From: Ceratodon purpureus
Taxonomy: Eukaryota; Streptophyta; Bryopsida; Pseudoditrichales; Ditrichaceae
Assembly: GCA_014871385.1 (NCBI GenBank)
Contig: CM026429.1
Coordinates: forward strand, 6,120,283 to 6,184,282
Length of the DNA: 64,000 nucleotides
Direction of reading: 5' to 3'
Shown: one piece after another, positions 4,845 to 42,279 of the stretch
Layout of the letters: each line of letters starts with the position of its first letter
Position numbering within the stretch: position 1 is the stretch's first letter
Made by a program: the position numbers and the translations under genes
The notes under the pieces: model-generated
The model's database searches: none
The model's input: only the letters and a program-made list of their open reading frames with translations
What the model was told of the DNA's origin: nothing

Positions 4845-5777
4845 TTAACCCCTAAATGCCTACAAATTAAACCACATCAAGAATTGCCTTTCAACATTCT
4901 TTTGAGAAGGAAGTTAGTTTTTTCAATTTTATGACAATTTTTTGGAATTTCAACCGTAGGATCTTATAGCTAACTTATTGAGACATTCTTTTTCAAATTT
5001 ATAGAGGAGAAAAAAAACCAATTGCAATATCATAATGTTTAAAGTTTAAGAAATGGTTTTTTTTGAGCAAGCTGAAACCCAGCCTTCAATGAATTTTCAA
5101 AAAATATGCTTTATAAATCTCGAACATGCAACTCCATATTTTGTTAGATAAATGACTTGAGAATCTTCACCAAAAAATTTAAAACAAAAAATATAGGTTT
5201 TCATGTTCAAGACATGTGTAAACCAAATTAGATGTAGAATAAAAGAAAAAACTAAATTGCTAATTACGTCCACATAAAAGCAGATAATGTCACTTTCAAC
5301 GATCCAAATGATGTGATATCATTTTCAACAATCCAAAAACTTTTTCAATTTTAAATTTTGAAAAATTGTCAAAATTGAATTCAAAATAAGTTGTTTTAGT
5401 TATATTTCATGAAGGCTTGACGAAACTGCCCGCAAAATAAAACTCGTCATATCATTTACTTCACTTATTGGAATGGACTAAATCAAAGCTTCTTATTCAA
5501 ATACATATCTCTAATAATTGACGATATTTTTATTTATTTTTCAAAAATATATTTGAATTTTTTTGTGGCTGTCCACGTTGAGATTTAAAACCTTCAACCA
5601 TCCAAAACTTTTTCATAACTTATTGGAATCTTATGAAACAAAGCTTGGCATGTACATAATGACCTAAGAAGTTCAAATACAAAATCTCATAACTTAATAA
5701 TAGTTTTTGACATTGTGGGATCGTGCCCAAAATAGCATGCGACCACATTTTGGTTGCATGGGAGTTTAGGGGTTTAA
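4845..5777 (-). mobile_element. TTAA-bounded non-autonomous element, copy 2
   Basis: Bounded by TTAA (4845-4848) then CCCCTAAATGCC, and on the right by GTTTAGGGG then TTTAA (the expected TTAA is at 5774-5777). It is about 930 bp. Its interior is the reverse complement of the copy at 30136: both share the GACCACATTTTGG block, GCATGTACATAATGACCTAAG-type sequence, and the AACCGTAGGATCTTA motif. It has no open frame of useful length, so it must be mobilised in trans. TTAA targets with ends starting CCC are the mark of the piggyBac superfamily; no transposase is in this window to prove it. Confidence 0.7.
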
Positions 5778-6812
5778 TAATGTACATTGTGTGAAGATCT
5801 ATGTAAACATATAATAACTAGATTGTCTCAAAATATACATAGAAAATAATTTTATGAATTTCAAGTTATAAAAAGGATTATTTGTTTCAAAAACCATATA
5901 ATTTAGGTTTCATGTGAGGTTTCTTATAGAGTTGGTTTTTAATTGACAAATGGATAGAAGAAAACTCTTTTTATAATAGAAAATTTTAATAAAAATCATT
6001 ACTTATTATGGTTTTTTTTAAGAATATTCTGAATTAAAATCTTACATGCTCTTCGTGAATTAATTAAAAATGAAATCAAAAGAGAAATTTTATAGATTTA
6101 TACATACATAAAGCTATTTTTCATATAATTGTGTAATACAAACATCTTGAATTGCAACAAGCTAATTGGTGAATGAAAGAATATTAATACTTCCAGTAAT
6201 CATTTGAGATTTTAGTGCATGATAAATTAGATGTTGGAAATTTTAAAAATTAAGATAATAAATAATAAAATATAATTTTTAATTATAAATAGATTATGGA
6301 GTGGCTCGTCAGCCATTGTAAATTATTGACACCTCTAGTACCTATATATAATTATTTTTATAAAATTTTATAAATTTATATACTTTTAGAAAAGAATACA
6401 TTCACTTTTTGAAGGTTGTTTACCCAATAACAAGTTACAATAGGATTATGAAATTTTCACTTTATTTTATTTAAGTAAATTCATGATAGAAAAAAATAAC
6501 ATGAATACATGTTTAAGTGTACATTTCATATAAATTTACCAAAAATTAAATGAAATAAAATTTATCAGCTGAAATAAAATTTATGAGTTCTTTGTTTCAT
6601 CTTTTAAGCACATATTTCTCTACAATTTCAAAGAGTTTTTTTTTTTAAATTTTAAATTTTAAGTTTTTTAGATTTTTTAAATTAAAAAATTTAGCTAATA
6701 AGTTACGCTTTGATTAGTATTTATAAAATTGTATATTTTTATATAGCTTGTTGATTAATACATGTAGGTGAATCAATACCTGCAAGATTGTTATATAATT
6801 TGGATTTTATTG
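5778..6812. other. AT-rich stretch, nothing recognised
   Basis: Extremely AT-rich (runs such as TTTTTTTTTAAATTTTAAATTTT near 6630, without coding frames). It lies between a TTAA element and a SINE; it holds no identifiable gene, RNA or repeat boundary. Confidence 0.5.
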
Positions 6813-7144
6813 AGGGAGGATGGCTTGGGTGTAGCGGTTTGAATCATGGCACTCCGGTGAGGTGGTTGTGAGTTCAAATCCCTATGCCGAGGTGATGCTA
6901 CGACCATAGTCTACCCAACTATGGTAAGGGGTCTTGAGAGTTCGTTGTATGGGTACCCAAAAAGACCTTGGGGGATTACATGTCGGATGTTTTCAAGGTA
7001 CAATGTGTAAAAAAGTGTTTACTTTCGAAAGGGAAGAGTAGCTCTAGATTCATTATCCTTTGTCCTAGATTAGTGAATGGGATGAACAAACACTATATTC
7101 AGGTTGGCCCCTTAAGGATTGAAGTTCTTCTTCTTTTCTTCTTA
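6813..7144 (+). mobile_element. tRNA-derived SINE, copy 2
   Basis: The element is flanked by a 10-bp direct repeat GATTTTATTG (6803-6812 and 7145-7154), the target-site duplication of retroposition. The head has a box-A-like GTGTAGCGGTTTG and box-B-like GAGTTCAAATCC (about 6829-6880). The body matches the copies at 4165 and 13895. The tail ends in repeated TTC/CTT. Here the 3' hairpin arm is eroded (GGCCCCTTAAGGATT). Confidence 0.88.
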
Positions 7145-7154
7145 GATTTTATTG

Positions 7155-8010
7155 GCTAACATCTGCTTTGTTTGTATTCACACACCATGTACAGATATAC
7201 TTTCATAGATATTTTGTACAGTTTTATTCATTTCTACAAGTTTAAAAAAGTTGATGTTTTATTATTAGCAACCGTCTACGATCAATATGACACGTCTAAA
7301 ATGCAATACATTCTTCAAAGATCCGGCCCATATGAAATACATTTTTAAGGAGCAACATGTTCATGAATATACAAAAACCTTGAGAAAAAACAATACTTAA
7401 CATTGATATACAACCTCACTTTCAATTCCGATTGATTGATATGATAATATACATCACACAATAAGAGATTGAATGTATGATTTTATTTTATTTTTTCTTT
7501 ATTAATTTTTTTGGAGGGATGCAAATGAATGAAATTCATTGCACTAAGTAAAAGTACAAGCCCTCCCATGATCTTGTTTTGCTTTTGTTTTTGTTTGGTT
7601 TCTGTTCTTTTGTTGTTGTGATGCAAAAGCTATTGACTTGTGATGTAAGTTAAGTGCGCATAAAAGGGCAAGGTGACCCACATGAACAAACTCTGGTAAT
7701 GCCTCAATCTAAGGCTACAGTAGGGGAGTCAACTAATCAAGCCTTTGTCTGATCTAATAATTCTGCCCTCCTCTTCTCATTATTGGATCCCTGTTTGCCA
7801 ACTTCTCAACATGGGTCGCGGAAAAGTGCCACACTTATGAAACAAAGTCAATCTAAATACATTGTACTTTGCTTAGACCAAATGCAAAGAGAGTGTCTTG
7901 TCATTAGGTGTGACAATTTGCTGGATAATGAGGTGCGAGGATTGCAGATTCCACAGCATTTAGAGAACTCAATAAATTTATGCAAGTTGAGGTACGGAAT
8001 GTAGGTTAGT
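7155..8010. other. Intergenic stretch, nothing recognised
   Basis: The 73-codon frame near 7783-8004 (+) has no recognisable motif. There is a modest rise in GC content around 7620-8000. No splice-site series or homology to a known protein was seen. Confidence 0.4.
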
Positions 8011-8212
8011 CTCGCATGAATTTTATTTTTTCAGGTTTTGTTTTTGTTTTCTGAATTACTAAAATAATCTTTAGATGGATTTAAAATAGAAAAATATTAC
8101 ATAAAATAATTTCCCATATTTTTTTTTCAATCCTTAAAATTTCCAATTTTTAGGTTTTATTTTTTTAGAATTATTTATGAACGAAACTGCTGTAGACTTA
8201 CAGTACTTGGCT
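8010..8212. repeat. Dispersed AT-rich repeat, copy a
   Basis: This shares an ordered set of blocks with 13318-13575 and 49625-49885: an ACATAAAATAATTTCCCA-like block, CCTTAAAATTTCCAATTTTT, then TTTAGAATTATTTATGAAC and a region ending near CAGTACTT. Three copies in one orientation indicate a mobile element family, but the termini are unclear and I cannot assign a class. Confidence 0.5.
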
Positions 8213-8704
8213 GTGTGTGGCAATTGAGGTTGAAGCTGATCACCTGGATTTTGTCGCTCAAAGTAGTGAAAGGTTACCATCTTTCTAGCATGCTCCCCAG
8301 TGCCCCCACAATCTGTTCTGTAATTACATTACTGGATGTCTAGATCAACCTAATTGTATTTATCTGAAACATGTAACTTAAAGGGGATATCACAGGATGA
8401 CAAGATCAATGACCCAGAGGTCGTTCCTTAAGTTCATATGCTGGAGCAAAAAACATTTGGTAATCCATGTTGTGTTTGGATGACAATTCAAGATAGGTAC
8501 AACAATTTTTTGTGATCTATTCCTGAATTATAAAAGAGTGCAGTCACTGGTGCATAGCTGGGTTCAATAATTTATCAAGTCTAAGATTTTTATATGATAG
8601 GAACATACGATCAAATTTACATCACATCTTTTCTCTTATTCAAGTTAGAAAATTCATCTTCAATTATTGGTATCAATACTTTTTCAAATTTTCTGAATGT
8701 ATTT

Positions 8705-8944
8705 TTTTTTTTTTTTTTTTTTTTGAGTCAAATGGTGAAGTTCCATTGCAAATGAAAAAGAAATACACCGTCGCAAAACCGAGCAAGGATGTACCTGGCC
8801 GGTGAGTAATTTTTTGATTTTTGAGTACCTAATAAAACCTGAGCACCTAAAACCACCTGAACCTATCCGGACCTGGACCTAGCCGGCTCCGAAACCATAC
8901 CTATCGTGACGCTAAATTACAGAAACAGCCCGCAGGGCGGGTGG
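8705..8944 (-). mobile_element. Poly(A)-tailed retroposon (5'-truncated LINE tail), copy 1
   Basis: The insertion is flanked by the 17-bp direct repeat ATTTTCTGAATGTATTT (8688-8704 and 8945-8961). It begins on the plus strand with a T-run of about 20, i.e. a poly(A) tail on the minus strand. The tail-proximal sequence (TTTGCAATGG, CATTTGACTC, then A-run) matches that of the retroposon at 21268 (TTTGCAATGA, CATTTGCCTC, A-run), so both come from the same retrotransposon lineage. It is more GC-rich than its surroundings. Confidence 0.8.
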
Positions 8945-8961
8945 ATTTTCTGAATGTATTT

Positions 8962-9756
8962 GAGTTCCAAGTCCTTTGAATTGAACTTCACTGATCAGTG
9001 ATACACATAACTGTAAGTGTTATATATGTCGGTCATGGATGTACAAGGGAAAAAACTTATTTACTAACAGATTGCAATTTTCATGTTGGAGAAGCAGGAA
9101 ATCAAGTAAAAAGATCAAAGAAAAACATTTGTCCTTCACACTTCCAGCAAAGGGAGTGATTACAATAAAACAAAGGTACAGACAATTCACAACTCTAACC
9201 CACGGAGATACCGGACAAAAGTATGGGAAAACTTACCCTTGATGTGGATGCACAAAGATTGCCCGGTTGTGCACTGCCTCCTTGCAGTCCTTGAAGGAAA
9301 TGGGAAACCAAATCCAAAGAATGGTGACACACTACCAACTCCGTAGCTGCCATATCACAATTGGCGATATTCTCACAATGATGTGGATTATCTTCTTGAC
9401 ATTTTAAAACCAGGGCCGCGGAATAAAAGCCTCCCTAGGCTCGTCGAACCACCTACAAAACATATTCAAGAGATAGATAATAAATAATTTTACACATCGT
9501 TTTTAAATTCAACAATCAAACATTCTATATTGAATGTTTCTACAAGACTATATATAGTCTATGGATTTGTGGTCTAACTCTTCACCATTTTTTTGTCATG
9601 GGCATTTTTTGCAACAAATTGATTTTTGTTAATTTGCACTTAATACTTTGTCTTGTAGAAGAAAAAAAAACATACTGATGAATAGATCTAAAGCATATGA
9701 GTCCATTCATACCAAGATGGCTTCTAAATTTCTAAAATTATGAATGTTACAAGTAT
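8962..9756. other. Intergenic stretch, nothing recognised
   Basis: A 67-codon frame near 9039-9242 (+) is rich in Lys and Arg but has no recognisable domain. No clear repeat boundaries were found. Confidence 0.4.
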
Positions 9757-10517
9757 TTAACCCCCAAATGCCTAAGCCTATGACCACGGAAATTGACTTT
9801 GACTTTGGATACTCTATATTGCTACTATAAATAATGTAAAATATGAATTTTTAATTTTTCATAGCTAGATACACGTGTTATCTACAAGTAAAATTTTTAT
9901 CAGAATTAATGGTTTCATTATGTAGCTAATATAAATTTTCAAATAAAAACAAACAAAAAAATTTCATATCAAATATAGGTTATACTAAAAAAATACAAAA
10001 TATTTACCATGGATGTATATGACAACCAAGAACCGTATACTAGTTACCGTGCTCAAAAATTATGTTTTAATTCAAAAATATGATGAAAAAACTCAAAACC
10101 GTGGAAAATCAAGTAGTAGCCACAGGTATATCCCTTGATCTTATACCAGCTATAGATCACTCCATTTTAGGTATTTTTAATTTTTTTAAATTGGACTAGA
10201 TAATAGATTTGTCAAAATACATTTTATTAGTTTACTCAATTGCAGAAAAGATCATCTCGATAGTCAAAATTGTGATTCAGCTATTTGTATTAAGGAATTT
10301 TTGAATATACACACGGTATTGATGTTTTGGACTTTAAGGAGGCACCAAAATTCATGAAATAATTATTTTGAGAATTCATTAATGAGATTAGATATACTTC
10401 TCACAACTTTACAACATGAAAAACAAATGGATGAAAAATTGTCATTTTGATGACAGATATGGAACTTGGAAAAATGAGATCTACCACTTTTTGGTTGTTT
10501 AGGCATTTAGGGGTTAA
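9757..10517. mobile_element. TTAA-bounded non-autonomous element, copy 3
   Basis: Left end TTAA (9757-9760) then CCCCCAAATGCCTAA; right end TTAGGCATTTAGGGG then TTAA (10514-10517). The inverted ends pair over about 15 bases with one mismatch. At about 760 bp it is shorter than its 930-bp relatives, and the interior is AT-rich and non-coding. Outside TTAA the flanks do not match each other (GTATT versus TGATT), so a longer target duplication is absent. Confidence 0.75.
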
Positions 10518-11606
10518 TGATTCAATTGAGTTTTGGTTGTTTAGATGCTAGAGTTGGTGACGTTGTCTATCAATGACAACGCTCCACAAAGAAATAAAGA
10601 CCATATATATTAAAAGAAATTTGGAGTTTCAGAAGGGTCCTATAAGACAACCCGTGTTAGGTGAACCGGCTGCCCAATTACCCTCTCCATAAAAGCCCAT
10701 TGGTACATGTCGCTGCCTGGTGATAACATTAGAAGCCATAGTGCCGGCAGTATTGATAGCGCTAGTGGTGTCGATTGATTAGACCCCTCGCCGGATCCAT
10801 GGAATTGCACTGCTGACAGCCAGATAACACCACTAGTGTCAACATCAAAAGCGCACGGTTTGGATCAAAATTTTCAGCACGTGAGAAAATCAAAGGCTAC
10901 ATATCTCTCCTAATGGGTACTTTATATAACCTAACTATGGTTTAAGACTAGGGCTGACATTTGGAAAATTGTAAGATGTGGTCATCTTCAACATGGCTAA
11001 AAGCTCAAATATTTAAGGGTAAAGTTTAGTATTGATTCTAGTATGGCTTTTCATTCAACTAGTTTTTCAGATATACTACCATCTATATTCTTATTTATAA
11101 AAAATAATGAACCAAATTGATTTGTTGATGTTTTCAAGAAAAACATCTAGTTGCCATACAAACAATCTATACATTATCAATATGGTCAAAATAAAATCAT
11201 AATATTGAAAAATAAAAAGCATATAAAATAATATCAAATCTAAAAAATATGAGTAGCATTTTTTTTGCTATAATCAGAAAAATTAATTATTTTAGCATGT
11301 TATTTAAAATATATTAAAAAACTCAACAGGATGTACTTCTTTTTCAAATTTCAAATTATGAATTAACTAAACCACACTTTTTTGCTACCATCTATTTAAC
11401 ATACGACTTTGAATTCTTATAAATTTATTCTGCTTAATTGTCTTGAATTTATTTTATAAAATTAAAAATTAAAAATCTAAAAAGAAAAAATTAACAAAAT
11501 GAATTTTACAAAAACATTATATCATAAACAACTTGTGTAGAAAATTTGAAACTAATAATCAAATGTTTATGTTAATATCCCAATTTTTAAGGCTTCTAAA
11601 GTGTAT
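10518..11606. other. Intergenic stretch, nothing recognised
   Basis: Between two TTAA elements. The part at 10620-10930 is less AT-rich (GGATCCATGGAATTGCACTG region) but has no usable frame. The remainder is AT-rich. Confidence 0.4.
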
Positions 11607-12537
11607 TTAACCCCTAAGTGCCCAAGCATGTTTTGGGTCTCAAAACCTCAATAACAGTGATTTTTGACCACCTTGTTCGGATTGAGGTATGGTCAACGTT
11701 TTTACTGATTTTTTCTACTTTTAACCGTAAGATCTTGAACCTAAGTATTGTCAGTACTTCCTCAAAAAATTTAAACCGTTGGATCTTTACCAATAGTAAG
11801 ATCAACTATTGGTAAAGTTGATGCAGAATTGTTTTTGCCTTGCCCAATAGACTTACTCAACTTTTTGCCAAGGAGGACTTGGTGATTATTATCAAACAAT
11901 TTGCTCATATTTTTTTCCATTTAGGTAACTAAATTAGACACGTTCATGCAAAATTTTGGAGACTCATTTTCATTTTTTGGCCTTCATGTAAATTCTTTTC
12001 CAGAAGGAGGTATAAAACCCTCAATACGGTCAAACTTAAATAACGTTTAAGATTTTTGGTTTGCAAAAAACGTGAACGGTAAAAAGTTACATCTATGAGT
12101 TTTTGAATTTTAGAAAAACATATTCTAAAAAATTCCTAAATCTCAAATTTTTACAATTTTTGAAAGGAAAAAATATAAAATTACAAAAAAATTTGAAGCT
12201 TGTTCATGTAATTTTTGGAGGTTGCCCTTCTAAAATTGGTAAACTTTTTGACTTGGGTCACTTTGGATTTTGAGTAGTGATTTGGTTATAAACATATTTC
12301 TAATTTAAAAAAAAAAAAAACCTTTTTTTAAATTGCCCAAAGTTGACTTGAAACCTCAAATTTCTAGTTGAAGGTTCTAGAATTGAAATTTGACTTTGAA
12401 AATTTTACCACGTACACATTGCGGTAAAGGGAACATCCAGTAAAAATTTAGGCAAAAATATTACTTTTAACCTCTTCATCGAGGCTACCTGAAAGAGCAA
12501 AAAGCCATTTTGGCTTTTTTGGGCACTTAGAGGTTAA
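11607..12537. mobile_element. TTAA-bounded non-autonomous element, copy 4
   Basis: Left end TTAA (11607-11610) then CCCCTAAGTGCCCAA; right end TTGGGCACTTAGAGG (first T approximate) then TTAA (12534-12537). Its length, 931 bp, equals that of the copy at 30136. It contains the family motif AACCGTAAGATCTT near 11724 and a short palindrome TTTACCAATAGT/ACTATTGGTAAA at 11788-11818. No coding capacity. Confidence 0.75.
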
Positions 12538-12606
12538 TTGGTATTTTATAATTTAAGTCTTCCTATCTAATAATAATTATACTAATTAAAGTCTCAGTAT
12601 GAACTA

Positions 12607-12778
12607 CTCCCTCCGTCTAACTAAGACAGCATGGTTTGGTAAAATAACCTATCTAAAAAAAGTGGTTTCTAAATTTGGAAACTTATATTTAAATTTGTCC
12701 AATTTGTTTCTAAATTTATAATCGCCCTTAAATGTGCTATTATTAGCAAACCATGCTCTCTTAGTGAGAAGGAGGGAG
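12607..12778. mobile_element. Stowaway-like MITE, copy 2
   Basis: A 172-bp element with intact TA target duplications (12605-12606 and 12779-12780). The left end starts CTCCCTCCGTCTAACTAAG, the right end closes CTTAGTGAGAAGGAGGGAG. Both halves carry AGCATGGTTTG or its complement, as in copy 1. The interior again has the AAATTTAGAAAC-type repeat. Confidence 0.88.
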
Positions 12779-12780
12779 TA

Positions 12781-13317
12781 TATCATTAGATTATCAATAT
12801 GCCTGTGAAGATAAAAATTACTTATTTTTCCGTGTTATGAAGTAATAGAATAATCCAGCTTTAGCAATTATTTTTTTACTTGAAAATTAGTTAGAGAAGA
12901 TTTAAGTATATATAAAATATTCAATAGCTACAAAACCTCTAAAAATCAAGATTATTTTGTCTATCTGCTCATTTTCAAGAAGATATCTCGATTTCAATTA
13001 ATGCGAATTCAATTTGATTTTAATTGAGGCAAGTTCAATTAATTAAAAACTCAAATTTGATTATAAGGCGTATGAGATTTTCAACGCATATCCAAAGTAG
13101 CCACATGTTAGTTTTATATTTTTGAGAAATTTTTAAGTAGGATATTAATATGCAACTATATATTGTGCTCAATTATGTTGCTCTAAATCAACTCTATGGA
13201 TTAAAAAAATTACATTTATAAACCCCACATGAAGTTTTATAGAGTTAAAAATAAAATTAAACAATACCTTAATGAAAGAATTGTAGTGATAGTTTTTATA
13301 AACCGTGCATAGATAAC
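12781..13317. other. AT-rich stretch, nothing recognised
   Basis: No coding frame, repeat boundary or structured element was seen. Confidence 0.4.
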
Positions 13318-13575
13318 AAGTTCACTCATCCTTGATTGAACATTTTATTTTTTGGAAAAATAAGGTTTGTCTTCGAAAAGTTTAATTTCTAGTTCTTGTT
13401 TTATAAAAAAAATTATAAAAATAACCTTAGATGAATTAAAAATAGGTGAATATCACATAGAATAAATTATCATATTTTCCTATTTCCATCCTTAAAATTT
13501 CCAATTTTTTTTGTTTTATTTTCTTAGTATTGTTTATGAACAAACTTGGTATCAATGTACGGTACTTATATTCTT
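13318..13575. repeat. Dispersed AT-rich repeat, copy b
   Basis: Same orientation and block order as copies at 8010 and 49625, including GAAAAATAAG, CCTTAAAATTTCCAATTTTT, TTTATGAACAAAC and a final GGTACTTAT-like end. Class unknown. Confidence 0.5.
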
Positions 13576-13878
13576 AAAATCACAAATTGGCATTTGAGCC
13601 ATAAAATATGAATCAAATAGTTTTACAGTAGACATTGAGAATTAAATATTTCAAAATATTTGAAGATGAATGTAACATCTCCTATAACCATCTAGAAATG
13701 AGTTATGATGGTCTACAAGTCCCATGCCTTAAGTTTGATCATGAATCTTCAATTTCCAGATGAATTGATATCTTCTTCATTCTATTATATTTTATTTATA
13801 CTTCAAGTATTGTGTATCATTCTCACAAAGTTGATGACAATGGATCTAAGAAAGTCTACAACAACATGTCAATATATA

Positions 13879-14805
13879 TTAACTCCTAAAGTGCAGGCAC
13901 CACAGTCGTGGTGTAGTGGTTTGAGTCATGGCACACCGGTGAGGTGGTCATGGATTTGAATTCCTATTCCGACGTGGTGTTTACTACCATAATCCACCCA
14001 ACTATGGTGGGGGGTCTTGAGACCTCGTCGCATGGGTACCCAAAAAGACCTTGGGGGGATGACATGTCGGTTGTCTTCAAGGCACTTAGTGTAGAGGCAC
14101 TTAGTGTAGAAAAGTGTTTACCTTCAAAGGGGAGGAGTAGCTCTAGATTCATTATCCTTTGTCCAGAGGCCATCGGATTAGTGGATAGAACAAACAAACA
14201 CTATATTCACGTTGGCCCCTTCGGGGCCGGAGTTCTTCTCCTTCTAACTCCTAAAGTGCTTTTAAACCCAATTTACATTTTTGATTTAAATGAAGTAGTA
14301 AAAATTAATATTCTGGTGCTAAAAGTTTTAGGAAGAAGATTTTACTGCAAACTAATTGTGTGAAAGTTTTCGTGAATTTACAATTTTTTGGGAATTTTTC
14401 ATTGACAAATCCGTTTTTTTTTCATTCATATTTGGATAGTTAAAAACTTTTCAATTTAAGATATTTTTTGAATATTTTAATTGTAATTTATTCTTAACCA
14501 AATTCCTACTCAAATTACCAAGTTATCCAAGTTGAGTTTTACAAGGGTAGGCTTCAAAGTTTGACAAAAAGAAGTTCCTCAGTTGCAAAAAAATTAAATT
14601 AAATTTACTTTGATCTTTATCATCTCACAAATAAAGAAAAATCAGCTGTCCAATTTTGATATATGAATAGTATGTCAAGATGATTATAAGATTTTATAGG
14701 TAGATCTACTAAAAATTCTTAGATTGAGATTAATCGAACACAAAGTAGGAAAGAGTCTGTTTTGGCAATTTTACTTCAAAAACACCAAGAAAACTTAGGG
14801 GTTGA
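13879..14805. mobile_element. TTAA-bounded element, copy 5, split by a SINE
   Basis: Left end TTAA (13879-13882) then CTCCTAAAGTGC. A SINE interrupts it 12 bases in, and the end resumes after the duplicated target at 14245-14259. Right end AACTTAGGGG then TTGA (14802-14805), a one-base change from TTAA. Without SINE and duplication it is about 560 bp, so this copy is internally deleted relative to the 930-bp form. The nesting order shows the TTAA element is older than the SINE insertion. Confidence 0.6.
13895..14244 (+). mobile_element. tRNA-derived SINE, copy 3 (full length, 15-bp target duplication)
   Basis: The best copy of the family: 350 bp between perfect direct repeats TAACTCCTAAAGTGC (13880-13894 and 14245-14259). 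The tRNA-like head has box-A-like GTGTAGTGGTTTG and box-B-like GGATTTGAATTCC. The body has the inverted motif around CCACCCAACTATGGTGG, the ACCTTGGGGGG block, and a 12-bp tandem duplication (GCACTTAGTGTA twice, about 14082-14106). The 3' end has the perfect hairpin GGCCCCTTCGGGGCC and a TTC/CTT tail. The 139-codon frame that crosses it is incidental. Confidence 0.93.
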
Positions 14806-18960: not shown

Positions 18961-18974
18961 ATCTCATGAGAGAA

Positions 18975-19051
18975 GTGGCTATCGGATTAGTGAATAGAAT
19001 GAACAAGTACTATATTCACGGCAGCCACTTCGGGAACGGAGTTTTTCTTCT
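18975..19051 (+). mobile_element. tRNA-derived SINE, 5'-truncated copy
   Basis: Only the last about 77 bases of the SINE are present (GGCTATCGGATTAGTGAATAG, ACTATATTCACG, the eroded hairpin GCCACTTCGGGAAC, TTCTTCTTC tail). It is flanked by the 11-bp repeat TCATGAGAGAA (18964-18974 and 19052-19062), so the truncation occurred at insertion, as in target-primed reverse transcription. Confidence 0.85.
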
Positions 19052-19062
19052 TCATGAGAGAA

Positions 19063-20680: not shown

Positions 20681-20689
20681 GGCCATAAC

Positions 20690-21210
20690 ACAACTCAAAT
20701 AGTGTCAGTTTCATAATTAAAGAGGCCACATGTAGATTGCTCGAAGGTTATGTGTTAAATGATCATGATTATAATACAGCTCAGATGATGTTAATTTCAT
20801 AATTAACCAGGGCCAACAGTAATAAACGGTCATTTGAATCACGTAGTTTGCTCCAAGGTTATGTATTAAATGATCATGATCATAATACAATTCAAATGAT
20901 GTTACTTTCATAATTGAACAGACCCTCATTAATAGACGGTTTTTCCAAATCATTTAGATTGTTCAGAGAATGTGATAAATAATCATGGTCATAATAGAGT
21001 TCAAATAATGTTAGTTTCATAATTAAACACGCCCAGCAATAATAAACGGTCATTTGAATCATGTACTGTAAATTACTCCAATGTTATGTGTTAAGTAATC
21101 ATAGTCATAATACAGCTCAAATGTCAGTTTAATAATTGAGATTTTCATAATTGAAGAGGTTTACTATAATAGAGGATTTTCCAAATAATGAAGATTGCTC
21201 CAAGTAATGT
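20690..21210. repeat. Degenerate tandem array, four to five units of about 110-120 bp
   Basis: Each unit repeats the ordered blocks TCATAATTAA (variants TCATAATTGAA), AATAAACGGTCATTTGAATCA, TGCTCCAAGGTTATGT, TTAAATGATCATGATCATAA and CAGCTCAAATGATGT. Units have diverged by substitutions and small gaps. Nothing coding. Confidence 0.75.
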
Positions 21211-21267
21211 GGTATACTGTAACCTGAATGGAATTAAAAGTGTAGCACATTTAAATCCAAGGCTTTA

Positions 21268-21474
21268 TATCCTGGGTAGAAGAGAAGGTCTAACCGTTAA
21301 GTGGAATTTACTACCCCCGGGTGGGATTATCCCTAACTGGTTTTAGTTGGTTGTGCTTTGTGATGACTTAGTTTCATGGTCCAGAAGTCCGTTTCTACGC
21401 CCTAGACCTCGGTCTGATGAGGGTTGTATTTTACTCCTTTGCAATGATATTCTTCATTTGCCTCAAAAAAAATA
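21268..21474 (+). mobile_element. Poly(A)-tailed retroposon (5'-truncated LINE tail), copy 2
   Basis: A 207-bp insertion flanked by the 15-bp repeat AAATCCAAGGCTTTA (21253-21267 and 21475-21489). It ends in TTTGCAATGATATTC, CATTTGCCTC and an A-run, matching the tail of the retroposon at 8705. The upstream part (CTACCCCCGGGTGGGATTATCC region) is GC-richer than the surroundings. Short length and poly(A) indicate a 5'-truncated LINE. Confidence 0.8.
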
Positions 21475-21489
21475 AAATCCAAGGCTTTA

Positions 21490-22690
21490 GTATAGTATAG
21501 CCTGCAACATGTTGTTTCCTAAAAGCTAAAGAATAACACCATACAACAAATAATAAATGTGATATCAGCTTGTACAGTTCAAAAATTCTAGGAGTCTACA
21601 TATGGTTCTTGTTTTTTTGCGAGGTATGCATCTTGTTATTTTAGCCATTTCAAAAAGCCTAAGACCACAACAATTCAATTGATATTGAGGGAGGTTTGAA
21701 CATTTAAAGAATTGATATTTTATTGTTCACATCGTACTAAAACCTACTCAAATCTTACTTATGACATTTGCGTTCCCAATTTGGCTGATTTTGTCCAGAT
21801 TTAGAGTCTCACCCTCGCAGGCTTTGTCAGATCTTTGGCTGTGCCAGCGGCATCGTGCCACCTCATTGCTTGCGAGAATCTCCAACGAATATGTGTGAAA
21901 TTTGACGCGGAGGGGTGGGGGGTCGGATTTTTGGTGAGTCAGGGGAGGCTGTGAGGGCCCTGGAAACAGGCTTTGGCGAGTCTGCCATTTGGAGCACGGG
22001 TGCGGATGCTCTTACACGCACACATTGCATTTGGAACACAAATGGACATTTTATTCCATCACAGAAGCCTACACTGATCAAACACCGTCTTGGAGAAAGG
22101 CACTGCTGATGAATCCCACATCCCACTCCAAAATATTCCAGTGCTTTTAACTTACCGGTATTAAACACCGTTTTCCAATAATTAAATTCATAAAAAACCA
22201 AAAATACATATATAAACCCCAAAAGAAACCAAAAAATAAAAAATAAAAAATCACCGATATGAAAAAATCGTTCACTGAATCTGACATCCACGTAACCCCC
22301 ATATTAATAAATGAATAAATGGAGAATGTTCTGACAAGGAGGGAATCAGAGAAGATTAAATTATTGGAGGGGGTGGTCTAAAAATGAGGCCCTGAAATGG
22401 GATTCTGAAATGAGGAGTTGAATGGGGCTGATGATTGTTGGTTCCACTTGGATCCAGTTCTTTTGGTTCCTACAAACCAGGAGGAATAGGAATCAGGCTA
22501 TGTTGGGGTTGGGGAAAAAGCATCCCCAGCGCGCTTTCCCACTCTGGCCCACAGTAATTGATATGTATTTACTGGGAAGTGAACATTCTTGTATCTACCA
22601 CTCACTGCTATTGGGTTATGGGGTTCAAATGCAATACTTTCTGTAAATTTCCTTAGAGCATCCTCAGTCGTGAGAGTTTGGCTCCCTCTA
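21490..22690. other. Intergenic stretch, no supported gene
   Basis: A 142-codon frame on the minus strand (21863-22291) overlaps smaller plus-strand frames. Its hydrophobic start and Ser/Pro-rich end match no family I know, and no splice partners were found. The 22.4-22.8 kb part is mixed composition without a gene. Confidence 0.35.
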
Positions 22691-23078
22691 AGGTAGAACC
22701 ACCCATCTCCGACCGGGGACCCATAACCGATCAGTAGTCTTCTCCAATTCCAACCTTCTGTCAGATTTAAAATCTTGAGAGATCTAGAAGAAAGTATCAA
22801 GCATGATTGGTAGAAAGGGAATCATATGGAAATATTCTGGTGATCAAGTTTTGGTGTTATGGTGGTCGGTTTTAGGTGGGCCTAGTGATTACTTATGGGT
22901 GGTTTTCCGCTTTTCACTTTAAAAATCTGTAACTATTTCGAATTTGGGAATAAAATTCCAAAAAAATTTGCATTCAAGAATAAGCTTATGTCTCCACAGG
23001 GGAAAAATCCTCATCAAATTCGTCGCCTCAAAAACACATGCTCAAACCTTAACTGGTCGGAGATAGATGGTTCTACCT
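22691..23078. mobile_element. TA-flanked MITE, AGGTAGA-end group (member A)
   Basis: The left end AGGTAGAACCACCCATCTC and right end (reverse complement) AGGTAGAACCATCTATCTC pair over about 25 bases including CCGACC. Both sides are flanked by TA (22689-22690 and 23079-23080). It is 388 bp, non-coding. The first seven bases of the end are the same as in the elements at 28944, 32873 and (eroded) 50216. Confidence 0.75.
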
Positions 23079-23119
23079 TATCGGCAAAAGGGGGAGCATG
23101 AGCTTGTGGCACGGGCCAA

Positions 23120-23400
23120 CGAACTATCTATGCATCCCGTCACTGTACGGATCTCGCCAAAAGAGCTCCCGGTCTCTGCAAATTTTGCTCATTTCCCGTG
23201 AAGGAGAGTCCTCCCGCTGGCAGTCATGACTACTACCAGCGATGCTAATTACAGTCTCATCCAAGATCTAGAAGCCCACATGTAATCATATGGACCGACG
23301 CGAACCACTACGGGGGAGCCACATGTGTAGGAGGAATCGAATCCGGGACCTTTCCCCAAGAGGCCACTCGGTCCAAAGCCCGGCATATCCCTCCCGTTAC
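23120..23400 (-). mobile_element. Possible second tRNA-derived SINE (reverse)
   Basis: On the minus strand from about 23400, a box-A-like TGGACCGAGTGG is followed at tRNA-like spacing by a perfect box-B-like GGATTCGATTCC. The following sequence is GC-rich compared with the neighbourhood. It does not fold as a complete tRNA and differs from the SINE family at 6813. I could not define the 3' end or target duplication. Confidence 0.45.
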
Positions 23401-23680
23401 TCAGTCAGAGCCCGTCAAGTTCCGTTGGAGGGAGCTGACGACGGGACCTGACTGGGGTTGCTCTTACATGGGTTTTGTGTCATGAGGACTTAGGATTAGG
23501 GCGGGCTTTCGTGTATGATCGGTTCTGGTCGAATCAATAAAACAACCAGGATTGAGTTTCAAACTTCACTGGAAGAGGGTGATGGGAGAAGCATGACATT
23601 TAGTTTCACTACTTATCGGTGGCACCTTTCATTGGTTCTTTTCTTTGTTGCATTTAAGTTTAGATGCATGGCAGGTATAT

Positions 23681-23815
23681 TTGAGTGTGCGAATTAGTGG
23701 GGGTCCTTTCTACGGGTGGATATGGTTGAGTGTGCGAATTAGTGGGGGTCCTTTCTACGGGTGGATATGGTTGAGTGTGCGAATTGGTGGAGGTCGTCTC
23801 TACGGGTGGATATGG
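23681..23815 (+). repeat. Tandem repeat, 3 x 45 bp
   Basis: Three consecutive 45-bp units (23681-23725, 23726-23770, 23771-23815) start TTGAGTGTGCGAATT. Units 1 and 2 are nearly identical apart from the preceding base context; unit 3 differs at a few positions (GGTGGAGGTCGTC). Because 45 is divisible by three, the open frames through it show a 15-residue repeat, but there is no gene evidence around it. Confidence 0.9.
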
Positions 23816-24718
23816 AAGTGCTTTGCAGATTTTGGTGGTGGTGAAATCATTGTTTACTGCTGGAGTGATCCAAACATGGAAGAAGGCCATTAGTGATGGA
23901 ATGAACAAGCGTTTTAATTACAAATTTTTCAAATTTTTTCTTTATATGGTAGTGTTTTTGAATTTGGTTTTTTGTTTGTTTCATATGAGTAAGTAATATT
24001 GGAGAAATGTTCATATTTGCATGTTTCATACTTGTATTTTTTTCATAAATGAACTAAGTGGAAAGTTATTACCTTCAATTTTACTTTGTGTAGGTTGCTA
24101 GATGATTTGATAGTGTTTCAATTAGGAAGGCCTAATTTTAAGAATTGATCATCTTAAACTATGTGGGTGTTTAATTTGTATAGTTATGCATGTATTTACT
24201 TATTTACTTATTTGTATAGTTATGCATGTATGCACTTATTTACACCAAACAATTAGCAAACAACTTTAGTACCTTGCTTTTAGGATTTGCGCCAACAATA
24301 ATCTTAGGTTTTTTGTGGTCAATGAAAAAATTTAGTTGAATATACAAGACTTTTGCATAGAACAAATTCCTTCTCACATCATAATTAGACACATCATAAT
24401 TAGAGAATTTTTTTCATTTTTTAAATTTAAGCTTAAAAAAAAGGTGAAAATCTACAAGAAAGATTATTGAAATACATATTTTAAAGATAATATGGCCCTA
24501 TTCCACTTATATGATTTTTTTCTTAGCACAATGTCCTTTAATACTTATAAAATCTGTTTTACAAGAAACTAACATCATTTGTAACTTAATTCTAATTAAT
24601 TGGGCCTTGTATACTACAAATCATTGATATTTAGAGAAGTCTAATTTTATTGACCATACTTGGGCAAGCTAAGAATTTTTATTTTATTTTTCCTTTTTAC
24701 TTTTGATTCTATAGATTA
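23816..24718. other. AT-rich stretch, nothing recognised
   Basis: Contains a short local duplication of TTGTATAGTTATGCATGTAT (about 24176-24233) and otherwise no recognisable feature. Confidence 0.4.
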
Positions 24719-25557
24719 TTAATCTCTAAAGCATCAACTCAACAAAAATAATATGATTTAGGGTTTGGTCAAGCTTACTATAAGTCAATTTTTAAAGGAT
24801 GAAGCTGTAATTTTTGACACAGTATAGACAATTTTCATATTTTTCTAACAAGACCATTCATGCTTCAAATTCCTCATACTTTATGAGATGTCTACAGTCA
24901 AAGTTTGAAAATACTATTAGGGCATATTGAAATTTGCCCAAAATTGCAGTACATATGCTCGAAATCTGACCAAAATTAATTAGATCACATAAACTTAAAA
25001 AATCACCAAATTTGTGATTCAATTTTTTTTCAAGTTCTGTTCCCGTCCATGAAAATACAATTTTAAAGCATGATCTCACCACTTGGATTTTAAATCCAAT
25101 GTTTTTCCATATGCCTTTTTTACTATCACAGACCAGCCTTTGGATTTGAATTTCAGAATTCCCCCATATAAAAATCAAGCATTTATTTAGATTTTATAGG
25201 TTGTATGAAGAAAAGAAGTGCATAGACATATTCCTGACCCACCTAGGAACATGAAGTTGATGAGCCTCACATCAAATTTGCTTCTGAAATTGATTTTTTT
25301 GGCTCACTAAACACTTGAAATCCATTTTGCAATAAGGAAAAAAAACTTTTTTCCAACTTAGAACATTATGATCTCACAAAAGGCAAAGAATTTGAATCTA
25401 AGATTTAAGGTATAAATACATGTACAAGTAAGGTACTAGATCTTACGGTTATTTTCCTCCAAAATACATCAAAACTTTAAAACTTACACCTTGTATTGAA
25501 AGACTCTAGTTTTGAGAGTTTTTGGCAATTTTAAGGCCTTTCAACTTTAGGGATTAA
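24719..25557 (+). mobile_element. TTAA-bounded non-autonomous element, copy 6
   Basis: Left end TTAA (24719-24722) then TCTCTAAAGCATCAACTC; right end CAACTTTAGGGA then TTAA (25554-25557). It is 839 bp. The whole length aligns in the same orientation with the copy at 27084, which makes these two a subfamily. Shared landmarks include GGTCAAGCTTACTATAAGTC, GGCATATTGAAATTTGCCC and GATCTTACGGTT. The 106-codon minus-strand frame inside is not shared in open form with the other copy. Confidence 0.8.
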
Positions 25558-27083
25558 TTACGTGATCAAATTTTGTACATGTTATCCAAGTAGTCTTCAA
25601 TAAGATCCTACCACTGAGATTCAAATAAAATTATTTTTTGCTTCTTTCAGTCTTCAACTTCAAAAGGAACAATCTTAAAATAAGTAAAATAGAGCTTTTA
25701 CTAACTTCTTTTTTGTTGATAACTAAGGAATAATCAAATAAATGGGTAATTCCATCTTAACCGTTAAAAAAAAATTGATTCTCATTGGTGGGAATAGGTC
25801 AAGGTCTTTAAGCTTAAGGATACTCATTTAGTTAGATTTAGGTAGTTTTTTTTATTTTTTATTTTTAAAAATAATTCATCAATAAAAGTCCGTTCTTCCT
25901 AATGGTACTTAGTTCTAGCCTAGGTAGTTATAGTGTTCACCTTTGAAGGAAGGCATCAAGGTTAGCATGCACTCTGTAGGTCCTGGTGGCATACTTAGTA
26001 TCACTATCTCCAACGGACACTTAATTCACGCGGGCCTTTGGCTTGAGTTACTTTTTCATCAATAAATTATTTATAAGCGACTTTTTGCCTTCTCTAATGG
26101 CTCTGCCCTGGGTAGGGGACTTCATCATTTAAAGGAGGGCAAGGTTTATGAAAGTGTCTAAATCCCTCCATCGAGGGTGGCTCAAAGAGCCAAAGGCCAT
26201 GTTTGGGAGGGGTACGGTGGGACAAGTTTTTACCCTTATTATTATGCTTAAGTGAGGTCCTACCAATCTCAAGGGGACCTCTTCGCATAAATTTGGGGAC
26301 TCTGGTCTGGAATTTAGAAAAAAAAAAAAACAAACCCACAAGCCGAAAACGGGGAGGGGCACAAAATGGAACCCACCGAACCAGGCAACCGAGCCACGCT
26401 CAATGGGGAGAAATGAAGAGACCCAATTAGGTTTAGCCCCAGGTCAAAATCCTTTCACTCAAAGATGTACAATCTTAGTCCACACCAGCTGCTTGAAAGA
26501 GAAGGAGATGTCTCTTTGATGTGAGAATGAAGAGCAAATGAACTTGGTCTGGACCTACAAATTTCCTTGATAGGTTTGGTGCATATATATGATACTTGTT
26601 TCTGTTGCCAAATGAACTAGACTTGTAAGCACCACTGCCACACAAAGTTCACATATTACTGTGCTACATGCACATAGAATTGGGCTTCAATTGGTTGAGA
26701 TGAGGTTCACTCCCAAAAGTATGGAAGCAACTTGATCATGATTTGTATGGGAAGAAGCTGTGCATTTGGAGTATATGAACCATTCTCAATGTAACCAATA
26801 ATTTCTGACACTAAACAATGACAACCTACATGAGTTTCTCTTGTTTGAATGGCTATTTTATTTGGTTTTGTTGTTAGTTTTTACTTCCAAAAAATAATAC
26901 TCTTAATTCATGCTGGAATGTCAGGTAGAGGCAAAATGACTTCATGTTTTCATTTGTCATAGATATTTTTTTACACTATTTCTAAATCAATAAGTTTGTT
27001 GATCATAATTTGATATGTGAGTTGATCCACCGATACATTAAAAATAGAAGATATGAGAAGTCAATTGCTCTATAAAAATATGT
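25558..27083. other. Intergenic stretch between two related elements
   Basis: AT-rich at both sides, with a GC-richer island at about 25900-26450 that has overlapping short frames on both strands and an A-run. This could be another MITE, but I found no matching ends. No gene recognised. Confidence 0.4.
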
Positions 27084-27928
27084 TTAACCCTAAAGCATCA
27101 TCTCAACATAAATGATACGGTTTAGGATCCGGTCAAGCTCCCCATAAGTCATTTTTTATAGAATGAAGCTGTAATTTTGGCACAATATAAACAGTTATCG
27201 TATCTTTGTAATAAGACCATTCATGCTTCAAAATTCCTCATATTTTAGGAGATATCCGCAGTCAAAGTTTGAAAACACTATTAGGGCATACTAAAATCTG
27301 CCCAAAACTGTAGCATATGCTCAAAATCTGCCCAAAATTAATTAGATCACAAAAACTTCAAAAATTCACCAAAATTTGAGATTTTACTTTTTTCAAGTTT
27401 TGTTCTTTGAACATGTAAATAAAATCTGAAGGCATCTCACTGCTTGGATTTTCAATCCAATATTTTTATATATGCCTTGTTTACTATCATAGACTGACCT
27501 CTATATTTGAATTTCAACATACCTCCATGTGGAAAATGATGCATTTCTTTAGGTTTAGTAGGTCGTATGAGGAAAAGGAGTGCGTGGATATATTTGTAAC
27601 ACGTCTAGGAACAAGAATTTGAAGAGCCTCACATCAAATTTGTTTTTGAAATTGGTATTTTTGGCTCACAAAACACTTGAAAGTTTGGAACCCATTTTGC
27701 AACAAGGGAAAAAATCTTTTTTTTCAACTTTGAACATTATGATCTCACAAACGGCAAGGAGTTTGAATCTAAGATTTGGGGTACATATACATGTCCAGGT
27801 AAGGTACTAGATCCAACAATTATATTCTCTCAAAATACATCAAAACTCAAAAATTTACACCTTGAATTGAAAAAGTCTAGTTTTGAGGGTTTTTGGCAGT
27901 TTTAAGGCCTTCGAACTTTACGGGTTAA
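27084..27928 (+). mobile_element. TTAA-bounded non-autonomous element, copy 7
   Basis: Left end TTAA (27084-27087) then CCCTAAAGCATCATCTC; right end CGAACTTTACGGG then TTAA (27925-27928). It is 845 bp and collinear with the copy at 24719, including the shared block CAAAGTTTGAAAACACTATT. The left end begins CCCTA, close to the classical piggyBac terminus. Non-coding. Confidence 0.8.
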
Positions 27929-28269
27929 GGTCATGTGTTTTATTGTACTGGAAAATGCTATTCTAATTCTCAAAAACCCCCACCTTAGAACAACCGTCCT
28001 TTAGGGGCTAACATTCCCTACACCACCTCCTTTCATGTTCTATTTCCTTTTAATTATTATTTTTCCAAGCACATGCAAACACTTAATTCTAGAGGTTCTC
28101 TCCCATTCCATACATAATTTCTTAAAAAATTGCAATTTTCCTTTTAGGCTCTCTTGGGGGTCTTGAATCTACTTTGGCAACTTGGCTTTCACTTCAAATA
28201 CCAATGCCTTGGTAAAAACTAACCCTCTAGGTTCAAACTCCAGCCCCTCTCATCTTATTTAAAAAAAAT

Positions 28270-28400
28270 TAATTATTTTTTGACACAAGTCTCTGGTATA
28301 TTCAGATTTTATTACTATTTTTCAACACAAGTCTCAGGGATATTCAGATTTTATTATTATTTTTTGACACAAGTAAGCCCCTAGCATATTCAGATTCAGT
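28270..28400. repeat. Tandem repeat, about three units of 46-50 bp
   Basis: The unit contains TTTTTGACACAAGTCTC, then GGTATATTCAGATTTTATT. Three diverging units run from about 28270 to 28400. A further single TTTTTGACACAAGTGAC occurs at 29428. Non-coding. Confidence 0.7.
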
Positions 28401-28943
28401 GACTGATTCCCCTTGTCCTGACTCCTCACCAGATTGGCAAACCCTCTGATTGTGGTTTTGAACTTTTAAAGCCTGAAACAGGTGCGGAACTTGGAACCTG
28501 TTTGAGGTGTCACCACAATAAGACCCACTAACCCACCAACATAGCAAAGTGACATGCGGTGGGCATGAAAAACTGCCTTGTTTCTTGAGCACTACAGAGC
28601 TCATGAACCTGCCCAATTGGCCATTTCAAGCCATCTCCCCAATGTGGGGATGCTTGCAAATATCTCTTGCTTAATTAGACCTGGATGGTACTCTAAGTAA
28701 CTTGCTTTGACCCACAGAATCTTTCTTAATTAACATATTTTTATAATTTTATACCACTAAACTATTGGTGTCCAAATTCAGAGGTGCTGAGGTGTTATGG
28801 GGATTGCCAATTACTATGATTGTCAATTTGTGTAATATTGTATCATATTCCTACCATTTGATTATGGTTTTAATCCTTTGGACAAGGACCCATCAGTTTC
28901 ATGCCTTGCTGGTTCTGAGGTGCTCACTGCTCAGCTACAACTA

Positions 28944-29362
28944 AGGTAGACGACCTGTTTCCGATCACCTTAAGCAATTTAACATACTTCCGATGAAGTG
29001 ATGAACACGCAAATGATTTTGGAGCGTAGGGAAATAGATTTGAGGAAGATCATATATTTTTGAACAAATTTTGGAGCAATGTTGAATTTACTATGAATTT
29101 TCAAAGTGAAGATTCTCTCCAACCCATTCTTGCTATATAGGCTGATCTATTTCCAAGAACTGAAAAACTTCATTCCAATACTAGTGCAAGAACACATGAT
29201 ATCCAAAAATCAAACTTTCTTCCAATTGGAAGTGAACACTTGTGAACTTTATACTATATCGCCATTTACAAATGAATTTGAAAATAATGCGAGCCTATGG
29301 TTGGAAATAGGTCGGCCTATACTACGTTATTGGGGGCCTGATCAGAAACAGGTCGTCTACCT
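28944..29362. mobile_element. TA-flanked MITE, AGGTAGA-end group (member B)
   Basis: The left end AGGTAGACGACCTGTTTC and its reverse complement at the right end (GAAACAGGTCGTCTACCT) pair over about 24 bases; TA flanks at 28942-28943 and 29363-29364. It is 419 bp. The 93-codon frame within is not recognisable and probably incidental. Confidence 0.8.
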
Positions 29363-29759
29363 TAACTCCGGTGTTGCCCTGGGCTGAACTTTCTAGTGTT
29401 TTAAAAACAATTAAACCTAAAATTAATATTTTTGACACAAGTGACACTTTATTCAATGCAAAAGACGCCGGGAAATTGCTAAGGGATCCTTGGACTTTGA
29501 AGAATTTTTGTTTCTGGTTTTTTTGAAATGCTTACTAGTATTATTTGTTGGTGGTTTCATGAAATGAACTTAGCATTATTTAGATGGTGAGGCCTGTTCC
29601 ATGTCCACAGTAGTCCATCAGGAATCAGAGAATCAGAATTTTAGGTCTATTTATATATTTAATTTGAATATTGTAAGTTCAGTAAAAGGTGAAGGGGTGG
29701 AGTGGGGATAAAATAAATTGTGATTGATATTTACAAGTCTTTATTTATTATCATATTTT

Positions 29760-29940
29760 TTCGCTTTTTTTTTGGGAATTCACATATTACTTTTCGCAAT
29801 CCATGGCTAAGCGGACGAGTTGCTTTTCGCAACCCATCGCCGGGGTTATCCATCCGGTACACGTGAGATTTTACGGCCGATTGGAATCGAACCACCAACC
29901 CCTAGCACCCCGGCAACAACCGAGGGTACCCAAGTCCATC
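29760..29940 (-). mobile_element. Possible tRNA-derived retroposon (reverse)
   Basis: On the minus strand a box-B-like GGTTCGATTCC lies near 29890, preceded by GC-rich sequence, and the element ends in an A-run (plus-strand T/A-rich at about 29760-29780). Internally GCGAAAAGCAACTCG and GCGAAAAGTAATATG form a short repeat. No box A or target duplication could be fixed, so the SINE assignment is tentative. Confidence 0.4.
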
Positions 29941-30135
29941 ATCTAGTAGTTTAAGGTCATTTTGGACCTGATTTTTCCGCTTTTTAACTTTACAACTCTC
30001 ATTCCTTGATGACCAAACTCATTTTTTGATACAATGATATGTAGTTTCTTTCCTTACAAGTCTTGTCTCTCCATTGAATAATAGGGAATAAAAGATTACT
30101 AGAGTCTAATCACATATTTTTATTCACTTTTTTCA

Positions 30136-31066
30136 TTAACCCCTAAATGCACTGGCGACCAAAATGTGGTCGCAGCCTATTTTGGGCAGGCTGCTATGCC
30201 TTCAAAAATAACTATTAAGTTTTGAGATTTTGTATGTAGATTCCTTAAGTCATTACGTACATGTCAAGCTTTGTTTCATATGATTCTGATATGTAATGCA
30301 AAAGTTATGAAGGATTAAAGGTTCAAAATCTCAACGCGGGCAGCATATAAAAAACTCAAATCTTTTTCTAAAAAATAAATTAAAATATCATCATTTTCCA
30401 CTGATTTGTATGCACATAGGAAGCTTTGAGCCATGCCAATCCAATATGTGAGGTAAGAGATATGAGAAGTCATATTATGCGGGCAGTTCGGTCAACTCTT
30501 CATCAAAAATAACTTCAACTATTGATTTTGAACTCGATTTTAGCAATTTTTCAAAATTAAAAATTGGAAAAGTTTTTGGTTACTTGTTACATCATCTTCA
30601 CCGTTGGAACTGACAATATCTATTTTCATGTGGACAAAATTAGTAGTTTAGTTTTTTTCCGTCTATTTTACATCTTATTTTTATTATTTATGGTTTGAAG
30701 ATGAAAATCAAGGTTTAATGTTTTGAATTTTTTTGTGAAGAATCTCAAGTCATTTTTTAAATAGAATATGCAATTGCCCATTCTAAAATTCTAAAGCATA
30801 TTTTCTGAAAATTCGTTGAAGACAAGATTTTAGTTTTTTGAAGGATTGGAAATAACTTGTCTTGGAAGTTTAACCAACATGATCTTGTGATTGGTTTGGT
30901 TTTTGACTCTAAGAATTTCAGAAATAACTTTTTGATGAGTTATTTATAAGATCCTACGGTTGAAATTGCAAAAGAATGTTATGAAATTAATAAAATCAGC
31001 TTGCTTTACAAAGTGGTATCAAAAGACAGTTTGAGCCTGAAATTTTCAAGAGCATTTAGGGGTTAA
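30136..31066 (+). mobile_element. TTAA-bounded non-autonomous element, copy 8
   Basis: The best-preserved copy: TTAA (30136-30139) then CCCCTAAATGC, and GCATTTAGGGG then TTAA (31063-31066). The 11-base ends are perfect inverted repeats. It is 931 bp and aligns in reverse complement with the copy at 4845. It carries a near-palindromic block with GACCAAAATGTGGTC close to the left end and the family motif GATCCTACGGTTG near 30950. No open frame of note. Confidence 0.85.
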
Positions 31067-42238: not shown

Positions 42239-42279
42239 GATGGATGATGAGGTTTCGATGAGGGATGAGTTGGTCTAGT

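Follow-up and report, generated by a model that had tools for sequence, protein, structure and literature searches.

Short TTAA-bounded elements of the moss Ceratodon purpureus as probable non-autonomous piggyBac derivatives with transposase-bearing relatives in the same genome

Short repeats bounded by TTAA are scattered through a 64,000-nucleotide stretch of the genome of the moss Ceratodon purpureus (hereafter the window; GenBank assembly GCA_014871385.1, contig CM026429.1, here C9:6120283-6184282), which raises the question of what kind of transposon they are and whether anything in the same genome could have moved them. A sequence-only reading had assigned seven complete copies, and one more cut by the window edge, to a single piggyBac-like family of elements. 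All seven coordinates were borne out, the single family was not. Based on searches of the genome assembly (362.5 Mb, 151 contigs), we conclude, with a probability of roughly 93%, that the short elements are non-autonomous derivatives of piggyBac, resembling miniature inverted-repeat transposable elements (MITEs), that have diversified inside this plant genome. This conclusion is based on short inverted ends of the form TTAA-CCCCTAA, the flanking TTAA, long elements with like ends and stop-free piggyBac domains, and asymmetric sequence boxes shared by long and short elements. As most known piggyBac elements come from animals and fungi, many full-length ones in a plant were unexpected.

The genome carries an abundance of piggyBac transposase sequences. 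A profile search with PF13843 (DDE_Tnp_1_7) returned 998 first-look candidates, and the best 116 of these were scored (882 without a score); all 116 lay above the curated cut-off (best 5.3e-84), while the same search gave matches in none of 14 control genomes. The matched domain was free of stops in 93 of the 116 and contained stops in 23, with open frames reaching 1,207 codons. None of the scored matches fell inside the window, two of whose ten open reading frames were scanned with Pfam, which agrees with the initial observation that no transposase is present there. Four open frames (790-1,194 aa, with mechanically assigned starts; introns and start codons not established) matched the PF13843 family only in Pfam. 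NCBIfam gave no match for any of four proteins. Three of the Pfam-scanned proteins, searched against PDB, matched the Trichoplusia ni (T. ni) piggyBac and Myotis lucifugus piggyBat transposases at E 2.7e-25 or better, with no further matches up to E 0.01, and a search for bacterial or archaeal relatives gave 24 pattern matches, none of them confirmed. Sequence was fetched for 20 transposase loci (all fetched sequences, these and others, are identified below by L numbers), 17 of which encode stop-free domains falling into seven groups that are 36%-60% identical to one another. Four D columns (149, 237, 354, and 357) are invariant in all 17 domains and align with D residues of T. ni piggyBac; we take them to be the catalytic residues. 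A CxxC..CxxC tail follows the domain in 16 of the 17, being absent from the L018 reading. As a separate matter of distribution, contig C6 (110,524,308 bases, 30% of the genome) holds only 19 of the 116 scored matches (binomial p 0.0008), which may reflect fewer intact copies rather than fewer copies, since only the best 116 of 998 were scored. Two identical-score matches, at C1:26682207 and C1:26687522, share an orientation and are separated by 5.3 kb, roughly the length of one element; they are possibly a tandem pair.

End pairs around the transposases were sought with a TTAA-containing pattern allowing up to three mismatches, and in 15 of the 20 loci the transposase was found between paired inverted TTAACCC ends, delimiting elements of 3,902-6,776 bp. 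The search suggested by the sequence-only reading, for a DDE_Tnp_1_7 element sharing the ends of the short copies, was thus successful, and at one locus the likeness extends well beyond the tips. The element at L036:2532-8440, whose 1,194-aa open frame codes for a PF13843 protein, is homologous at both ends to two window copies. The copy at 24719..25557 (+ strand, 839 bp) matches it over its first 138 bp (78%) and over a further 128 bp (73%) situated 94-219 bp from the other end, at positions 621-745 of the copy, and the copy at 27084..27928 (+ strand, 845 bp) matches over 137 bp (74%) and 130 bp (70%). A third copy, at 9757..10517 (+ strand, 761 bp, exact TTAA on both sides), shares one end only with a long element, its 3' 48 bp matching the end of the full-length element in L035 (89.6%). 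The remaining copies at 4845, 11607, and 30136 are linked to the long elements through an end box only.

This right-end box, AACCGTAGGATCTTA, is present in 11 of the 15 long elements (up to four mismatches), always on the transposase-3' side and 105-107 bp from that end. In five of six window copies (the copy at 13879, discussed below, being omitted), it occurs 106-117 bp from one end: exactly at 4952..4966 (+), 108 bp from the left end of 4845; with two mismatches at 11723..11737 (+), 117 bp from the left end of 11607, where a second box-like site, also with two mismatches, lies at 11774-11788; with three mismatches at 25436..25450 (-), 108 bp from the right end of 24719; with five mismatches 108 bp from the right end of 27084; and exactly at 30947..30961 (-), 106 bp from the right end of 30136. 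Across long and short elements together, 16 of 21 have the box beginning at 103-118 bp (up to five mismatches), compared with 0-1 of 21 in five other positional windows, and 13 of 42 ends contain it with up to three mismatches, against a mean of 0.08 and a maximum of 1 in 500 shuffles. A second box, TTTGGGCAGGTTCCTA, lies 45-46 bp inside the opposite end; 10 of 15 long elements carry it (up to five mismatches), as do two of six window copies (up to three mismatches). In both copies the distance is 46 bp: for TTTGGGCAcGaTCCcA at 5716..5731 (-; three mismatches) it is measured from the right end of 4845, and for TTTGGGCAGGcTgCTA at 30181..30196 (+; two mismatches) from the left end of 30136. The motif ACCGTAGGATCTTA, which had been noticed as shared among the interiors of the short copies, is that of the right-end box; it is really shared and, far from being scattered through the interiors, stands at a fixed distance from one end. 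The presence of the right-end box from L025 to L036, whose transposase domains are 59% identical, and to L033 (42%) argues that it is kept by function, and we infer that it is a putative transposase binding site.

These results also bear on whether the elements belong to another TTAA-targeting superfamily, such as Kolobok, Sola3, or a Tc1/mariner-like group with a TA target inside TTAA, and merely resemble piggyBac. TTAA is also used by other superfamilies, and TTAA-to-TTAA junctions would be equally well explained by a TA duplication and element tips of the form A..T. The table of a land-plant review, in the portion available, also lists Sola1 from Physcomitrella (PMC9033089). However, the elements with the same tips and the box at a fixed position encode a piggyBac transposase, as judged by Pfam and by the T. 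ni and bat matches, and no transposase of another superfamily appeared between these ends, PF13843 being the one profile searched genome-wide. The element in L036, with ends homologous to 24719 and 27084 and a PF13843 protein between them, largely refutes this alternative, which we consider improbable. The piggyBac identity of the short elements is accordingly supported by the PF13843 matches, the TTAA-CCC ends, the homology to L036, and the box at a fixed position in five of six copies.

Whether the short elements have true boundaries at all was assessed through their ends. TTAA borders all seven window copies exactly on the left and five of them exactly on the right, and the other two each differ by one change (TTTA at 4845, TTGA at 13879), as had been described from the sequence. 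The left tips begin with CCCC or CCC in five of seven copies and are degenerate in 24719 (TCTC) and 13879 (CTCC), and the right ends are the inverted form of the left tips. Single TIR-like ends (terminal inverted repeats, TIRs; up to two mismatches) are not enriched in the window, where 31 were counted against a mean of 21.5 and a maximum of 34 in 100 shuffles (reversed controls, 19 and 21); the case therefore rests on paired ends and homology. This lack of excess is what would be expected if the copies were AT-rich repeats that happen to be flanked by TTAA and had been picked out by eye, without any transposon boundary, and one of the seven lengths, that of 13879, did prove coincidental. Yet genome-wide the tip CCCCTAAATGC occurs 249 + 261 times versus 29 + 20 for its reversed control, a roughly tenfold difference, and 17 convergent pairs were found among 100 listed places, 15 of them spaced 890-970 bp and eight exactly 910 bp apart. 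Moreover, TTAA stood outside the tip at all eight unselected ends (the first eight places, representing ends of six loci), and copies on other contigs end at the same TTAA with differing flanks. We regard an origin by chance as so improbable that it may be neglected. TTAA is intact at either side of 26 of 28 elements, the other two differing by one change on the right, a count that for the 15 long elements is partly the product of selection because the end-finding pattern includes TTAA. The base left of the left TTAA was G in one of the 28, and the base right of the right TTAA was C in one; had the duplication extended further, it would have repeated the G or C that belongs to the element, and since this is rarely seen, the earlier statement that no duplication extends beyond TTAA holds.

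Empty sites were sought by searching the joined flanks of 30 elements in the fetched sequence, seven of which gave a match across the junction. Paralogous empty sites with a gap-free junction were obtained for three long elements, and two of these keep TTAA: the L034 element has TTAA in a paralog about 260 bp away and CTAA in L029, the L023 element has TTAA in L023:890-1089 (a second match overlaps the flank itself), and the L025 element has TTAT in L033. For the copy nested in L023, the only candidate, a match in L021 that is gapped, 66% identical, and reads TTGA at the junction, was rejected. No empty site appeared that assigned TTAA to the element, the readable paralogous sites showing a single TTAA-like 4-mer, and the three sites with gap-free junctions, all of them diverged paralogs of long-element flanks, tend to support a 4-bp target without further duplication. 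As a side observation, L002:1470-1540 (C1, near 1981784) contains two copies of TTAAATTGATACACT with an isolated 11-bp tip, GCATTTAGGGG, in between, an arrangement resembling the footprint of repair after excision.

Several observations weigh against a piggyBac origin of the short copies or reduce the force of the evidence for it. The L023 empty site is within a palindromic repeat, the empty sites are diverged paralogs (72%-81% identical), four of the seven spanned junctions, including those of 4845 and of the copy nested in L023, are not cleanly readable, and none of the seven provides a clean empty site for any window copy. By themselves, TTAA-to-TTAA junctions fit either a TTAA target or a TA target inside TTAA. 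At up to three mismatches, no clear end pair was found in five of the 20 loci (L017, L018, L019, L021, and L024), and among the fetched loci, no long element matched one of the families described below, family A, along whole ends. The right-end box is not at its position in four of 15 long elements (L022, L029, L034, and L035), the left-end box is missing in five of 15, and 9757 has neither; in addition, both boxes were derived from the same sequences in which they were counted, and since many long elements are closely related to one another, these counts lack independence. Similarly, nine of the 17 compared domains belong to one group.

The claim of a single family failed on pairwise identity. 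Among six window copies (13879 omitted; 15 pairs, best orientation), identity was 0.37-0.48 in 13 pairs, so that the single-family reading was rejected in favor of several families with the same kind of end, the six copies forming four groups. Family A comprises the copies at 4845..5776 (+ strand, 932 bp; left TTAA, right TTTA) and 30136..31066 (+ strand, 931 bp; exact TTAA on both sides), which are inverted relative to each other and 73%-74% identical, and family B comprises 24719 and 27084, which are 81%-82% identical. The copy at 11607..12537 (+ strand, 931 bp; exact TTAA on both sides) is 76%-80% identical to sequences in L019 and L033. The left-edge copy, 1..147 (-), ends in GGGGTTAA; its homology to 24719 begins only at the 80th base and runs inward. 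This inner stretch of 68 bp corresponds to the 5' region of 24719 and 27084, as well as to the transposase-5'-side end of L036, and about 64 extra bp lie beside the TIR of the cut copy, between this homology and the TTAACCCCTAAAAGT tip.

The length clusters near 930 and 840 bp were accepted in part, as the copy at 13879 drops out of the former. The feature at 13879..14805 (+) is a composite, in which a 562-bp TTAA..TTGA element carries an insertion resembling a short interspersed nuclear element (SINE) 16 bp inside its left end, and it was accordingly rejected as a 927-bp element. The SINE-like insertion (13895..14244, +, 350 bp) is flanked by a perfect 15-bp target duplication, TAACTCCTAAAGTGC, at 13880-13894 and 14245-14259. 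It belongs to a family of about 350 bp with relatives at 4193-4500 (-) and 6828-7135 (+), a partial one at 18974-19053, and another at L018:8769-9106. The start of the unit can be read as tRNA-like, and because both Rfam and ARAGORN returned no matches on the window, this is only our reading. Outside the SINE-like unit, 13879 has no match in the fetched sequences save 48 bp in L033, and none of the fetched loci yielded a long, transposase-bearing relative of it.

If the short elements are non-autonomous piggyBac derivatives, the transposases of the long elements would recognize the tip and inner box of each end, excise the short copies, and reinsert them into TTAA sites. Internal deletion of an L036-like element may have given rise to family B (24719, 27084, and probably the cut copy). 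For family A, mobilization may have depended on the L020/L025/L026/L030 transposase group or on something closely related to it, the corresponding long element not being among the fetched loci. Two exact family A tips 3.35 kb apart, at C2:26397724-26401078, mark a candidate place for such an element. Full-length elements in the same genome could still move the short copies, a point that bears on a sub-question of the piggyBac reading rather than on a competitor to it, namely whether the copies are dead relics that no transposase in the genome still moves. Copies of the same family in the window are only 73%-82% identical, two right-hand TTAA sites are mutated, and 23 of the 116 scored transposase matches contain stops, all of which would be expected of relics. 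Against this stand the 93 stop-free matches, with their long open frames, and the family A copies at L003, L007, and L023, which are 94.5%-96.7% identical to 30136 (others are 87.9% identical at L006 and 76% at L001 and L005); a relative about 95% identical to 30136 is nested within the long element of L023. Groups of scored transposase matches on different contigs also have identical scores, among them C1:21373195, C1:21386739, C5:17359582, and C6:75489330, and likewise C10:5926797 and C3:4650397, which suggests recent copying as far as scores can show it. Together, the high identity of family A copies and the identical scores hint at some recent movement, and we consider it unlikely that the population consists of dead relics only.

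The moss elements resemble the T. ni piggyBac and Myotis lucifugus piggyBat systems (PDB 6x67, 9c0f) in their DDE_Tnp_1_7 core with aligned D residues and in a Cys-rich C-terminal part, and the moss TIR is about as short as the simple 15-bp TIRs given for piggyBat in the available part of PMC8086355. They differ in carrying two inner boxes, at 105-107 bp on the transposase-3' side and at 45-46 bp on the opposite side, and in their open frames, which span 790-1,194 aa and whose N-terminal parts lack a Pfam match, compared with chains of 594 and 578 aa in piggyBac and piggyBat, a comparison in which moss starts and introns are not established. Both known systems use a TTAA target and tips starting with CCC, as is the case here. 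Similarly, the short copies are like Stowaway (Tc1/mariner), Tourist (PIF/Harbinger), Mutator, hAT, and CACTA MITEs in being small, repeated, and non-coding with inverted ends; those groups depend on different transposases, and their target duplications differ from TTAA. They also resemble the short, non-coding TTAA-type or "PiggyBac" MITEs of angiosperms, PiggyBac being one of seven MITE superfamilies recognized there (PMC10004981). The available passage of that source names no linked transposase, whereas the moss has long elements with matching ends in the same genome.

Mentions of piggyBac in the plant literature are uneven. A MITE survey of 207 plant genomes, four of them bryophytes, sorted its elements by the five MITE superfamilies compared above (Stowaway to CACTA), and neither "piggybac" nor "ttaa" occurs in the available portion of its main text (PMC12550479); in that of a 2022 review of land-plant transposable elements, six plant TIR superfamilies are given and the word "piggy" is absent (PMC9033089). 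Another plant review names PiggyBac with a citation to general classification (PMC10794571), passing statements that piggyBac-like elements occur in plants are found in parts of two further articles (PMC8086355, PMC10813416), and in the visible part of a table for a fern genome, PiggyBac has an entry with the values 1230 and 122417 (PMC6890710). No report of piggyBac in a moss was among the literature matches listed, and an earlier report may exist; the superfamily itself is already known, and what those matches do not contain is any account of mosses rich in it. A plant with many piggyBac elements whose transposases are free of stops would place the superfamily on the plant list by direct evidence, would explain a TTAA repeat class left unnamed in the available text of the plant MITE survey (PMC12550479), and would offer native plant transposases of a type used for seamless genome engineering. 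The two boxes at fixed distances provide a search key for such elements, for example TTAACCCCTAA followed by 80-105 bp and ACCGTAGGATCT, and allow a direct test of how the ends are recognized. A broader proposal, to which we give even odds, is that the moss hosts an old, strongly diversified piggyBac population with a distinctive asymmetric end code, made up of the tip, a left box 45 bp in, and a right box 106 bp in. On this view, recent movement of some members is possible, and the group may be general in mosses, which would make piggyBac a land-plant superfamily.

Elsewhere in the window, ten open reading frames of at least 150 aa were recorded; of the two scanned with Pfam, one matched DUF565, the Ycf20 family, in keeping with a plant genome, and the other had no match. 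Overlapping long open frames on both strands at 50472-51785 coincide with a repetitive stretch (LFPSCSPLVP-like repeats) and are probably not genes. A 303-aa open frame without a Pfam match (46329-47240) adjoins one member of a direct-repeat pair, 42279-43368 and 47186-48344, whose copies are 74%-76% identical; it is the second of these, at 47186-48344, that the frame adjoins.

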